Assembly (NCBI RefSeq): GCF_040499845.1
Contig: NZ_CP159342.1
Span: forward strand, 5,952,001 to 6,016,000
DNA length: 64,000 bases
Reading direction: 5' to 3'
Origin: Micromonospora sp. CCTCC AA 2012012
GTDB lineage: Bacteria > Actinomycetota > Actinomycetes > Mycobacteriales > Micromonosporaceae
Positions 59,919 through 64,000 of this stretch are shown in pieces. The notes under the pieces were generated by a model. That model saw nothing but the letters and a program-made list of their open reading frames with translations, ran no database searches and had not been told where the DNA came from. Positions within the stretch are counted from its first letter, which is position 1; each line of letters starts with the position of its first letter. The translations under genes and the position numbers were made by a program.

Positions 59919-61301
59919 ATGGAAGCGACGGGGCCGACCGGGCGCCTGCCCCGCCGGGTGCACGCCGGCTATGCGCTGGGCTCACTGGTCACCGGGGCCT
60001 TCGGCACCGTGCCCGGGCTGCTGCTCCTGCCCTACCTGACCGACACGCTGGGCGTCGCCGCGGGCGTGGCCGCCCTGCTGGTGCTCCTGCCGAAGGCGTG
60101 GGACGTGCTGGTCAACCCGGTCGCCGGGCGGATCTCCGACCGGACGCGCTCGCGCTGGGGCGCCCGCCGGCCGTATCTGCTGGCGGGTGGGCTCGCGCTG
60201 GCCGTGCTCTTCGCCGGGATCTTCGCCGCGCCGTTCGGCACCGGGCCGGGCGCCGGGGCGTACGTGGCGCTGGCGTTCCTCGCCACCGCCACCGCGTTCG
60301 CCTTCTTCCAGGTGCCGTACGTGGCGATGCCGGCCGAGTTGACCGACGACCGGCTGGAACGTACCCGGCTGATGAGCTGGCGGATCGCGGTGCTGGCGCT
60401 GGCCATCCTGGTCTCCGGGGCGGTGGCCCCGGCGGTGGTGGCCGCCGGCGGCGAGGGCGTGGCCGGGCACCGCTGGATGGGGCTCTTCGTGGCCGCGCTG
60501 ATCGTGCTCGGCGCGGTCGGCGCGTTCCTCGGCACCCGCGCCGCGCCGACCGGCACGGTGGGGGAGAGCGAGCCGAGCCTGCGCGCCCAGCTCGCGGTCG
60601 TCGCCGCGAACCGGCCGTTCCGGGCGCTGCTGGCCTGCTTCGTGGTGCAGTCCGCCGGGGTGGCGACCGTGCTGGCCGGGGTCAGCTACTTCGCCGGCCA
60701 GGTGCTGCGCGACCCGGAGACCGGGCCCACCCTGCTCTTCGTCTGCTTCGTCGGGCCGGCGCTGCTGGTCATGCCGCTCTGGACCCGGGTCGGCGCCCGG
60801 GTGGGCAAGCGCGCCGCCCTGGTCGCCGCGTCGCTGATCTTCGCGGCCGGCGCGACGGCCCTGGTCGCCGCGCCCGTGCTGCCGGCCGCCGGGGTCTACC
60901 TGCTGGTGGCGGTGATCGGCGTGGGCTACGCCGGCCAGCAGGTCTTCGCCCTGGCCATGCTGCCCGACTGCATCGCCGACGAGACCGCGCGCACCGGTCG
61001 CCGCCAGGCCGGCGTCTTCACCGGCGTGTGGACCGCCGGGGAGACCTTCGGCCTCGCCCTCGGCCCCGGCCTCTACGGCCTGGTCCTCCACCTCACCGGC
61101 TACGTCTCCTCCACCACCGGCACCCCCGCCCCCCAGTCCGCAACGGCCCGCCTCGGCGTCCTCCTCGGCTTCACCCTCCTCCCCGCCCTCCTGCTCGCCC
61201 TCCCCACCCTCCTCCTCCCCCCACCCCCACCCCCACCCCCACCCCCACCCCCGGCGCAGTTTCACGGAAAGAGTGGGCATGAGCCGAAGAATTCGCCCTG
61301 A
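59919..61301 (+). CDS. GPH-type cation:sugar symporter (MFS)
   Basis: 460 residues, about 12 membrane segments. Early 'AFGTVPGLLLLPYLTDTLGV' and the intracellular 'NPVAGRISDRTRSRWGARRP' are signatures of the glycoside-pentoside-hexuronide cation symporter branch. Substrate unknown. ATG 59919 with TAACAT eight bases upstream (leaderless likely). Oddity: the protein ends in about 12 consecutive prolines from a hexanucleotide microsatellite and then an unrelated tail 'AQFHGKSGHEPKNSP'; the normal C-terminus may have been lost or frameshifted. Confidence 0.85.
   Translation: MEATGPTGRLPRRVHAGYALGSLVTGAFGTVPGLLLLPYLTDTLGVAAGVAALLVLLPKAWDVLVNPVAGRISDRTRSRWGARRPYLLAGGLALAVLFAGIFAAPFGTGPGAGAYVALAFLATATAFAFFQVPYVAMPAELTDDRLERTRLMSWRIAVLALAILVSGAVAPAVVAAGGEGVAGHRWMGLFVAALIVLGAVGAFLGTRAAPTGTVGESEPSLRAQLAVVAANRPFRALLACFVVQSAGVATVLAGVSYFAGQVLRDPETGPTLLFVCFVGPALLVMPLWTRVGARVGKRAALVAASLIFAAGATALVAAPVLPAAGVYLLVAVIGVGYAGQQVFALAMLPDCIADETARTGRRQAGVFTGVWTAGETFGLALGPGLYGLVLHLTGYVSSTTGTPAPQSATARLGVLLGFTLLPALLLALPTLLLPPPPPPPPPPPPAQFHGKSGHEPKNSP
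61217..61252. repeat. Hexanucleotide microsatellite in the GPH transporter gene
   Basis: Five perfect ACCCCC units (61223-61252) preceded by six C's. The reading frame gives poly-Pro; any whole-unit change keeps the frame, single-base slippage would not. Confidence 0.9.
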
Positions 61302-61361: not shown

Positions 61362-62864
61362 ATGAGCGACGCGGAGCGGGCGGGCGGGCTGCCCGTCGAG
61401 GGGGTGCCCGCGGAGCGGGTGCTCGACGAGATCCGGGGACTGCGGGCGCTGGACCGGCCGACGCACGGGGGTCGGTTGTTCGCCTACGTGTACGACCCGG
61501 GGGTCGCCGGGCTGGACGAGTTGGCGCAGGCGGCGTACGCGGAGAGCGCGCACGTCAACGGGCTGGACCCGACGGCCTTCCCGTCCCTGCTGGCGATGGA
61601 GAACGCGCTCGTGGGGGCGGCGGCGGGGCTGCTCGGCGGTGGACCGGGCACCTCCGCGCCGGACGTGGTCGGCAGCGTCACCAGCGGCGGCACCGAGTCG
61701 CTGATCCTCGCCGTGAAGGCGGCGCGGGATGCCCGGCCGGAGCTGACCGAGCCCCGGCTCGTGGTGCCGGTGAGCGCTCATGCCGCCTTCGCCAAGGCGG
61801 CCCACTATCTGGGGGTGGCCCTCGACCCGGTGGCGGTCGACCCGGTCACCCTGCGTCCAGCGGTGCAGGACGTCGCCGCCGCGATCCGCCCGGAGACCGT
61901 GCTGGTGGCCTGCTCCGCCCCGGCGTACGCGCACGGCGTCGTCGACCCGGTCGCCCAGATCGCGGCGGTCGCCGCGGCGGCCGGGGTGCGCTGCCACGTG
62001 GACGCCTGCTTCGGCGGGTGGACCCTGCCCTGGCTGCGGCGACTCGGCGCACCGGTGCCGCCCTTCGACTTCGCCGTCGACGGGGTCACCTCGATCTCCG
62101 TCGACCTGCACAAGTACGCGTACGCGCCGAAGGGGGTGTCGGTGCTGCTGCACCGGAACGCCGCGCTGCGCGCCCCGCAGTTCTTCGCGTACGCCGACTG
62201 GCCCGGGTACACCATGGTCAACCCGGTGATCGCCTCCACCCGCTCCGGCGGCCCGATCGCCGCCGCGTACGCCACCCTGCGGCACCTCGGCGAGGACGGC
62301 TACCTGGAGCTGGCCCGGCGGACCCGGGACGCGGTGACCGGGCTGGCCGACGCGGTACGCGGGACGGACGGACTGCGGCTGATGGCCGAGCCGGAGTCCA
62401 CCGTGGTCTGCTTCACCGCCGACGACCCGGGGCTGGACCTCTTCGTGCTCGTCGACGAGCTGACCGCCCGGGGCTGGCACACCCAGCCGCAACTGTCGTA
62501 CGCCGGTCTGCCGGCCAGCGTGCACCTGACGGTCACCGCGGCGGTGGCCCCCCGGGTGGTGGAGTTCGCACCGGCGCTGGCCGAGGCGGTCGCGGCGACC
62601 CGGGCGGCCGGCCCGGTGGTGCTCCCGCCGGAGCTGCTGGCGCTCGCCGGCACGCTGACGCCGGAGGCGCTCACCCCGGAGCTGATCGCCGGGCTGGCCG
62701 CCGGCCTCGGTCTCGGCGCGGGAGCCGGTGACACCGACGGTCCCGCCGCGCCGGTGCCGGACCGGATGGCCGTGGTGAACACGCTGCTCGACGCCGCCCC
62801 GGTGCGACTGCGTGAGCGGCTGCTGACGGAGTTCGTCAGCCTGCTGCAACGACCCGCCTGGTGA
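61362..62864 (+). CDS. PLP-dependent decarboxylase / sphingosine-phosphate-lyase-like aminotransferase-fold enzyme
   Basis: 500 residues, fold type I PLP enzyme. 'HVNGLDPTAFPSLLAMENAL', 'GSVTSGGTESLILAVKAARD', 'HVDACFGGWTLPW' and the PLP-binding Lys in 'SVDLHKYAYAPKGVSVLL' match the group II decarboxylase / sphingosine-1-phosphate-lyase family. The 'SGGTES' and 'HKY.YAPKG' forms are closest to S1P-lyase-like bacterial enzymes. Substrate unknown. The C-terminal 70 residues contain an Ala/Gly/Thr-rich insertion. ATG 61362 has a GAGAGGCGGG stretch upstream. Confidence 0.88.
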   Translation: MSDAERAGGLPVEGVPAERVLDEIRGLRALDRPTHGGRLFAYVYDPGVAGLDELAQAAYAESAHVNGLDPTAFPSLLAMENALVGAAAGLLGGGPGTSAPDVVGSVTSGGTESLILAVKAARDARPELTEPRLVVPVSAHAAFAKAAHYLGVALDPVAVDPVTLRPAVQDVAAAIRPETVLVACSAPAYAHGVVDPVAQIAAVAAAAGVRCHVDACFGGWTLPWLRRLGAPVPPFDFAVDGVTSISVDLHKYAYAPKGVSVLLHRNAALRAPQFFAYADWPGYTMVNPVIASTRSGGPIAAAYATLRHLGEDGYLELARRTRDAVTGLADAVRGTDGLRLMAEPESTVVCFTADDPGLDLFVLVDELTARGWHTQPQLSYAGLPASVHLTVTAAVAPRVVEFAPALAEAVAATRAAGPVVLPPELLALAGTLTPEALTPELIAGLAAGLGLGAGAGDTDGPAAPVPDRMAVVNTLLDAAPVRLRERLLTEFVSLLQRPAW

Positions 62865-63009
62865 CCCCCGGCCGGGCAGCCCCCGGACCCCGGGGTGGTT
62901 CGGCACGTCACCTTTCGGCCCGTCCGAGTGCGGTGGACGGCGAAGGTTGCCTCCCAATTGTATGGATATTCATAAATTAATGGTGGTTCTCCGTGATCTT
63001 CCGACTGCG

Positions 63010-63044
63010 TAGCGTTCTTCCCATCGAAGGACCTACACGGGAGG
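63010..63044 (+). promoter_or_regulatory. Promoter and RBS of the tandem-repeat secreted protein
   Basis: TAGCGT (63010-63015) fits the -10 pattern used elsewhere here; GGGAGG (63039-63044) is seven bases before the ATG. An unusually AT-rich segment (62955-62985) contains the near-palindrome TATGGATATTCATA (62961-62974), a possible operator or UP-like element. Confidence 0.5.
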
Positions 63045-63051
63045 ACGCACC

Positions 63052-63498
63052 ATGGACACTCGCAAGCTCGTGATCAGCGCAGCCCTCGGTCTCGCCGGTC
63101 TGGCCGTCGCCGCCGGCGCCGGTGCCACCGCCGCCACCGCGATCGGCCCCGGCCCGGGCGTGATCGACCGGATCGGCCCCGGCCCGGGTGTCGCGTCGGC
63201 CTGGATCGGCCCGACCGTGCTGAAGGCCGCGATCGGCCCCGGCCCGGGTGTCGCGTCGGCCTGGATCGGCCCGACGGTGCTGAAGGCCGCGATCGGCCCC
63301 GGTGTCGCGTCGGCCTGGATCGGCCCGACGGTGCTGAAGGCCGCGATCGGCTCCGGCCCGGCTGTCGTCTCCGCCTGGGTGGGTCCGACGGTGCTGAAGG
63401 CCGCGATCGGCCCCGGCCCGGGTGTCGCGTCGGCCTGGATCGGCCCGACCGTGCTCACGGCGGCCATCGGCCCCGGCCCCGGTGTGGCGCAGCGCTGA
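63052..63498 (+). CDS. Secreted protein of tandem 20-residue IGPGPGVASAW repeats
   Basis: 148 residues. Signal peptide ('KLVISAALGLAGLAVAAGAG') and then almost only repeats: unit IGPGPGVASAWIGPTVLKAA, five copies (nucleotides 63172-63231, 63232-63291, 63292-63345 with a six-base deletion, 63346-63405, 63406-63465), flanked by partial IGPGPGV units. Units 1 and 2 differ at a single base, so duplication is recent. Copy 4 is the most divergent ('VVSAWVGPTVLKAA'). No Cys, no charged residues apart from one Lys per unit and terminal Arg/Asp. Each unit is hydrophobic with GPGP turns, suggesting a self-assembling surface or wall peptide. No family recognised. Confidence 0.85.
   Translation: MDTRKLVISAALGLAGLAVAAGAGATAATAIGPGPGVIDRIGPGPGVASAWIGPTVLKAAIGPGPGVASAWIGPTVLKAAIGPGVASAWIGPTVLKAAIGSGPAVVSAWVGPTVLKAAIGPGPGVASAWIGPTVLTAAIGPGPGVAQR
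63172..63489 (+). repeat. 60-base coding tandem repeat array
   Basis: Five units of 60, 60, 54, 60 and 60 bases plus a partial unit, in frame with the secreted protein. Copies 1 and 2 are 59/60 identical, and third-position changes in copies 4 and 5 show older divergence. Confidence 0.95.
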
Positions 63499-63626
63499 CC
63501 AGGTTCATCACCCGGCCGGGGAGAGACGGACCGGGACCGGGCGGCCCGGCCGGCAGCGTGCCGGCGCGGGCCGCCCCTGGCGTCGCCCCGGTGGCCCGGG
63601 GACCGGTCGGCCCGCTGGCCGACCTG

Positions 63627-63670
63627 CTGACGGAACCGCCCGCCGGTCATCCGGCGGGCGGCTCCGTCAG
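63627..63670. terminator. Hairpin terminator
   Basis: 20-base arms (CTGACGGAACCGCCCGCCGG / CCGGCGGGCGGCTCCGTCAG) with one mismatch and loop TCAT. It lies between the repeat-protein gene and the convergent partial gene. Apart from it, 63499-63770 shows nothing I recognise. Confidence 0.75.
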
Positions 63671-63770
63671 CCCCCGTTGTTCCGCCCCGAGCCGCCGAGT
63701 CGCGACCGCCTGGCGAACAGACACGCCCGGCGCGGCCTCCCGGTTGCGGGGTGGAGTGACTTTTTTCGGG

Positions 63771-64000
63771 TCAGCCGCCGAAGGAGACCGACACGTTCAC
63801 CGTGGTGGCCGTGTCCGGCACCGCCGTCCCCGTCTCGCTCCGACCGGCCTGGACGACCACCGTCAGCTCGTGGTCCGGCCCGGCGGCGACGGTGGTGAAC
63901 GGCAGCTCGACCTCGGCCTGCCCGCCCGGCTCCAGGGGTTGGGCGATGCAGGTGATCCGCCCGTCGTCACGGAAGAAGTTCCAGCAGCCCTGCGCCTCCG
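63771..64000 (-). CDS. C-terminal part of a CARDB-like/secreted-domain protein (5' end outside window)
   Basis: 75 residues before the stop codon at 63771-63773: 'CWNFFRDDGRITCIAQPLEP', 'GGQAEVELPFTTVAAGPDHE' and 'TTVNVSVSFGG' form a beta-rich extracellular-type domain like CARDB/DUF11 modules, with a Cys pair. The remainder and the start lie beyond the window. Coding frame is supported by amino-acid composition and strong third-position GC. Confidence 0.6.
   Translation of the reverse strand, partial: EAQGCWNFFRDDGRITCIAQPLEPGGQAEVELPFTTVAAGPDHELTVVVQAGRSETGTAVPDTATTVNVSVSFGG

Follow-up and report, generated by a model that had tools for sequence, protein, structure and literature searches.

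A family of small, putatively secreted IGPGP-repeat proteins in Micromonospora

Elastin and elastin-like polypeptides are made of hydrophobic Pro-Gly repeats, while the chaplins and rodlins are self-assembling surface proteins of Streptomyces aerial hyphae. The repeat protein described here, encoded near one end of a 64,000-nucleotide stretch of the Micromonospora sp. CCTCC AA 2012012 genome (the window), resembles each of these without matching any of them. As in elastin, short hydrophobic repeats with Pro-Gly turns follow a signal-like start and no fold is confidently predicted, but the unit is IGPGP-xxxxx rather than VPGXG, the protein is bacterial, and neither Pfam nor a PDB sequence search gave a tropoelastin match. 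Like the chaplins and rodlins it is a small hydrophobic protein, putatively secreted, of a filamentous actinomycete, but self-assembly is a property of theirs, the repeats here are decapeptides and no chaplin or rodlin row appeared in the Pfam and NCBIfam scans. The GPGXX repeats of spider silk also form tandem Gly-Pro turns, but silk gave no PDB-sequence match, the IGPGP protein is much shorter and Ile opens most of its units. The best NCBIfam row, to the acid-shock repeat protein Asr (NF033636), covers only residues 6-30, within the signal-like start, and Asr membership was rejected (E 0.18, 12.6 bits vs a cut-off of 50). More generally, the window protein had nothing above cut-off in Pfam or NCBIfam, members of a ten-row family alignment had no Pfam match, and searching PDB sequences with the window protein returned one unrelated row (E 0.58). 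The first-pass annotation, made from the window sequence, knew of no described family with this repeat unit, which agrees with these scans, but the protein is no orphan: it belongs to a Micromonospora family of which we found 14 members. The gene and the features around it are as follows.

61362..62864, + strand: PLP-dependent decarboxylase (Pfam PF00282), the conserved left border of a variable interval
62960..62984, + strand: AT-rich box preceding the promoter-like motif, beginning GTAT, 25 bp ahead of GGTT
62985..63015, + strand: promoter-like motif GGTT-N19-CGTA followed by GCGT, putatively ECF-like
63039..63044, + strand: predicted ribosome-binding site GGGAGG
63052..63498, + strand: repeat-protein gene, 148 aa plus stop; 13 further Micromonospora genomes have homologues
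63052..63141, + strand: putative signal peptide of 30 residues, Sec/SPase I type as read from the sequence
63142..63171, + strand: leading decapeptide IGPGPGVIDR
63172..63465, + strand: five 20-residue units
63172..63231, + strand: unit 1
63232..63291, + strand: unit 2
63292..63345, + strand: unit 3 (shortened)
63346..63405, + strand: unit 4 (diverged)
63406..63465, + strand: unit 5
63466..63495, + strand: terminal decapeptide IGPGPGVAQR
63636..63661, no strand: GC-rich perfect inverted repeat with 11 bp arms, between the repeat gene and the convergent gene
63771..64000, - strand: C-terminal part of a convergent 416-aa protein, predicted single-pass membrane protein and putative anti-sigma factor

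The reading frame at 63052-63498 on the + strand has the coordinates and translation originally given for it, opening with MDTRKLVISAALGLAGLAVAAGAGATAATA and continuing as repeats up to the stop. Its start combines a basic N-terminus and a hydrophobic core with A-x-A immediately ahead of IGPGP. Tandem Repeats Finder (TRF) places an array of period 60 at 63171-63489 (5.4 copies). Its score of 484 exceeds that of every other row among the 41 in the window, where the best array elsewhere scores 145, and the adjacent copies 63171-63230 and 63231-63290 are identical at 59 of 60 DNA positions. The 20-residue array and the lack of Cys are thus as first described, but the units are not all nearly identical, nor does each carry one Lys: unit 3 is two residues short, unit 4 has diverged to IGSGPAVVSAWVGPTVLKAA, and unit 5 has Thr in place of Lys, leaving Lys in four of the five. 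The 20-mer itself (IGPGPGVASAW-IGPTVLKAA) is an 11+9 pair, and exact IGPGP stands at 5 of the 12 unit starts of the window protein. Beyond the gene, the inverted repeat at 63636..63661 is a possible terminator without a T run; a terminator scan that requires such a run found none. The wider GC-rich hairpin at 63608-63672 gave only Rfam rows below their gathering scores (best P37, 27 bits vs 50) and is most likely just a hairpin. Elsewhere in the window, a CCCCCA hexamer run (61218-61252, 5.8 copies) encodes a polyproline stretch near the C-terminus of a GPH-type transporter (59919-61301).

Long antisense open frames are present in this high-GC genome, a 205-codon frame across the repeat gene among them, and a chance repeat or non-coding repeat DNA might be mistaken for a gene. 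Against this, the homologues lie in the same interval and keep the ribosome-binding site, the promoter-like region and the signal-like start, and pN/pS is below 1. Over all pairs of the 10 members (of 14) that have 30-residue signals, it was 0.60 for the signal, compared with 0.35 across the first two decapeptides. Sister pairs of loci point the same way: 16.0 of 45.7 synonymous vs 4.0 of 101.3 nonsynonymous sites differ between L057 and L058, 10.5 of 45.5 vs 2.5 of 101.5 between L056 and L063, and 3.0 of 46.0 vs 0 of 101.0 between L060 and L061, with L054 and L055 less clear (6.0 of 46.8 vs 5.0 of 100.2); the pair L059/L062, out of register and with different signal lengths, was left out. The chance-repeat reading is largely refuted, and we give it an almost negligible probability; judged by these comparisons, 63052-63498 looks like a real gene for a small, presumably secreted protein.

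Members of the family were sought at increasing taxonomic breadth. A first search of the genus used a single protein query against 121 genomes, and a second used a 10-row alignment against 160 Micromonospora genomes, with the loci then read. The latter matched 17 genomes, from which G096, G127, G150 and an extra row of G023 were removed, leaving at least 14 members, the window's own genome counted; no member was found in the other 146 of the 160, although members may have been missed as each genome search scored a part of its first-look candidates, 12-32 per genome. A family-level search of 300 genomes matched 21 and yielded nine accepted genomes, all Micromonospora, the discards being G096, G127 and G150 again together with nine genomes of other genera; second rows of two genomes (L050 in G226, L051 in G258) were left out of locus reading. 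Class-wide, two of 394 genomes matched at E 1e-6, both Micromonospora, and neither the family nor the class search gave a convincing member outside this genus. Scanning genome contigs with the window protein alone confirmed 0 of 107 stretches, while the 10-row alignment confirmed 5 of 218, from Micromonospora sicca, M. maritima, M. cabrerizensis, M. orduensis and M. parastrephiae, which add no members beyond the 14. Viral contigs gave 0 of 7 confirmed stretches, and plasmids, searched with the window protein only, gave no match. The repeat gene is accessory. Several weaker candidates were rejected on reading: no frame had three GPGP in the three loci behind the weak rows of G004, G034 and G075, none had two [IVL]GPGP in L031, L033, L040 and L043-L049, L032 had a long frame with two scattered motifs, and L041 and L042 had long frames, of 565 and 755 aa, that contained arrays of LGPGPGVPAQ and LGPGxGALVR but lacked a signal-like start. 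In L041 (901-2598; genome G194, another genus of the family) the LGPGPGVPAQ decapeptide array is short and lies within a 565-aa protein that has neither a signal-like start nor an all-repeat build, and it probably represents convergence.

Across the 14 members, 26-30 residues precede the first IGPGP, a feature that the search for starts itself used. The repeats then span 40-118 residues as 4-12 units per mature chain; two members (L057, L058) have short unlike tails after the repeats, and one (L064) has a single interruption. The unit in the relatives is the decapeptide IGPGP-xxxxx. Consecutive unit starts are 10 residues apart in 57 of 88 cases, 11 in 19, 9 in seven, 5 in four and 20 in one, which puts 83 of 88 at 9-11 (11 of 11 in the window protein), and IGPGP is exact at 90 of 102 unit starts. 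All 57 units that are exactly ten residues long begin with IGPGP (positions 1-5); G, S or T follows at position 6, and positions 7-10 vary, both among species and within single proteins. Cys is absent from all 14 members, none has LPxTG, and charge is not conserved, with Lys in the window protein, Glu in the APGE type and little elsewhere. The mature chains have 5-25 PG each and 35-60% Gly+Pro (at least 47% in 11 of 14), the window member being lowest in Gly+Pro; GRAVY in the family is 0.16-0.79. Two genomes (G045, G120) encode 6 vs 10 units, yet differ over 49 codons by 3 synonymous and 0 nonsynonymous changes; repeat copy number changes fast.

The region upstream of the gene is similarly conserved. 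GGTT-N19-C[GA]TA stands 37-43 bp ahead of the ATG in all 14 members (13 with CGTA, one with CATA), GTAT at 25 bp plus the promoter motif is exact in 10, and ACGGGAG or ACGGGGAG serves as the putative ribosome site in all. When the members are aligned without gaps on CGTA, columns identical in at least 12 of 14 number 1/50, 1/50 and 3/45 across -200 to -55, rise to 16/35 at -55 to -20 and 11/32 at -20 to +12, and fall to 2/33 beyond. GGTTNT-N17-CGTANSGT has a single exact match in its own genome, at the repeat gene. The stricter GTAT-N21-GGTT-N19-CGTANSGT has 10 matches in the 160 genomes, all ahead of family genes; having been derived from these genes it makes these matches by construction, and what informs is its absence elsewhere, as it precedes no other gene in the 160 genomes and has 0 matches in a reversed control. 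A sigma-70 promoter scan found nothing, and the conserved promoter-like motif is of a type other than sigma-70; its CGTA presumably fits an ECF-type promoter by known consensus types, and control of the repeat gene by an ECF-type sigma factor is plausible. Conservation in 14 genomes supports the initial proposal that the repeat protein is secreted and that its gene has a promoter of its own and a good ribosome-binding site. The palindromic upstream element that was also proposed is AT-rich as described (20% GC over 62960-62979), but it is only a near-palindrome (TATGGATATTCATA at 62961, one mismatched pair of seven). L054 alone of the 13 relatives matches this low count, the remaining 12 having 3-5 mismatches of 7, and a role as operator was rejected for an element kept in two of 14.

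The interval with the repeat gene is bounded by the PLP decarboxylase and an oxidoreductase subunit in all 14 loci, with a DUF2252 protein encoded after the latter. Because 57 of the 61 genus genomes searched gave a decarboxylase match, far more than carry the repeat gene, the enzyme was rejected as a partner. The interval may also hold a protein type with a weak DUF11 match, a C5-epimerase-like protein and an ECF sigma gene together with a protein of ~400 aa; in the window's own genome the sigma gene comes after the gene of the 416-aa protein, beyond the window edge. The sigma gene is of SigE type (TIGR02983, 134.4 bits, just under the cut-off of 141.55) and exceeds the cut-off for the sigma70-ECF superfamily. 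The ~400-aa protein has no family match, and its putative anti-sigma role is suggested by position and layout. Of the 14 loci with the repeat gene, 12 have a sigma gene in the interval, as do 12 of 20 that lack the repeat gene (the latter hand-picked among the best decarboxylase matches of the 61 genomes, hence not random); at these counts the linkage is not significant (Fisher P 0.14). None of the 20 intervals without the repeat gene has a frame with two [IVLMA]GPGP. GGTT-N19-CGTA was not found ahead of the sigma gene in any of the 14 loci, but L057 has an N17-spaced version there and L056 an N19 version within the sigma coding sequence. On a tree of the DUF2252 gene (32 of 34 loci; L116 and L118 had no match), repeat-gene presence needs six changes, or at least five by supported branches; shuffles needed 10.7, and 2 of 500 were as low. 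Presence is clustered, with one supported clade of eight in which all have the gene, and there have been several gains or losses.

The interval varies in other ways as well. L060 and L061 have three ECF sigma copies in the repeat-gene interval together with three matches of the 400-aa membrane protein type, while L057 and L058 have a second sigma copy outside it. A protein with a D-glucuronyl C5-epimerase C-terminal domain (PF06662) occurs in the interval of L054 (8082-9659) and also in L106 and L111. Where the repeat gene is absent in L104, L105, L107 and L112, two proteins of type cl15 (exemplified by L055 4854-5807; the L054 relative has the weak DUF11 match) fill the interval.

Throughout the family, then, relatives keep the reading frame, the signal-like start, the promoter-like region and a mature chain built almost entirely of IGPGP-type units in changing number. 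The reading we favour, tentatively and at slightly less than even confidence, is that of a Sec-secreted, largely disordered, elastin-like structural protein that associates with itself; secretion, assembly and role are all steps that we infer. The signal would be cleaved directly before the first IGPGP, and the mature chain would stay largely disordered, its Gly/Pro turns preventing folding. Evenly spaced hydrophobic residues could then bring chains together by elastin-like coacervation, and the associated chains might cover hyphae or spores as a coat or matrix. Unequal exchange between repeat units would alter their number, as expected where length and composition outweigh exact sequence. A coat function, if any, would not be essential, given that 146 of 160 genus genomes gave no member. 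The comparison with elastin draws on composition and on rules known for elastin, by which 2P+G above about 0.6 goes with elastomeric disorder and lower values with amyloid-like packing. 2P+G of the mature chains runs from 0.49 to 0.85 and exceeds 0.6 in 11 of 14, but the lowest value is that of the window member, which falls on the non-elastic side.

This member bears on an ordered alternative, a beta-solenoid or cross-beta (amyloid-like) fibre in which each 20-mer would supply two short strands and Gly/Pro turns. AlphaFold draws weak alternating strands across the repeats of the window protein and its 2P+G is the lowest of the 14, as such a fibre would predict; yet mean pLDDT is 45.1 overall and about 39-51 in the repeat part, a 130-aa relative (mean pLDDT 38.0) was modelled with no element after the signal helix, and 11 of 14 members have at least 47% Gly+Pro. 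The models took 10 or 6 alignment rows, and confidence this low fits disorder or an unrecognised fold alike. We consider the ordered fibre unlikely for the family, although the window member, with the lowest Gly+Pro of the 14 and with strands drawn unlike the other modelled member, may be packed in a more ordered way.

Other functions can be imagined for a repeated exported chain. Its Pro-rich units might bind a host or cell-wall protein, as a secreted ligand or decoy whose copy number sets avidity. The strongly kept IGPGP beside a variable remainder would suit such binding, as would the presence of members in M. orduensis, M. cabrerizensis and M. parastrephiae, which we take to be plant-associated, but no partner gene co-varies among the neighbours and no family or PDB-sequence match hints at a ligand; we regard this as decidedly unlikely. 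The multi-copy peptide precursor raised by the first-pass annotation, from which small peptides (a pheromone or a ribosomally made natural product) would be excised after export, found little support and seems to us highly doubtful. Short repeated units of variable number behind a signal-like start are what it predicts; but unit positions 7-10 vary across species and inside one protein, no dibasic or other regular cut site was seen by eye, and no maturation or dedicated export gene was recognised near the 14 loci (representative neighbours scanned: nine, of which three without a Pfam family, plus two more), the decarboxylase occurring far beyond the repeat gene. The other early suggestion, a self-assembling extracellular structure, is compatible with the sequences and close to the disordered, self-associating protein that we prefer.

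Micromonospora sporulates without aerial hyphae, and its surface proteins are little known compared with the chaplins of Streptomyces. It is possible, if somewhat doubtful, that the IGPGP proteins are an elastin-like material made naturally by bacteria: a decapeptide polymer, secreted in one genus only, that would phase-separate or self-assemble outside the cell, with a promoter unique to the family and a repeat number tuned by species. With its small size, clean definition, fast-changing copy number and conserved promoter-like region, this Gly/Pro repeat family would be a simple case on which to test ideas about natural surface materials of bacteria, elastin-like or disordered, and could supply protein materials with new repeat units.
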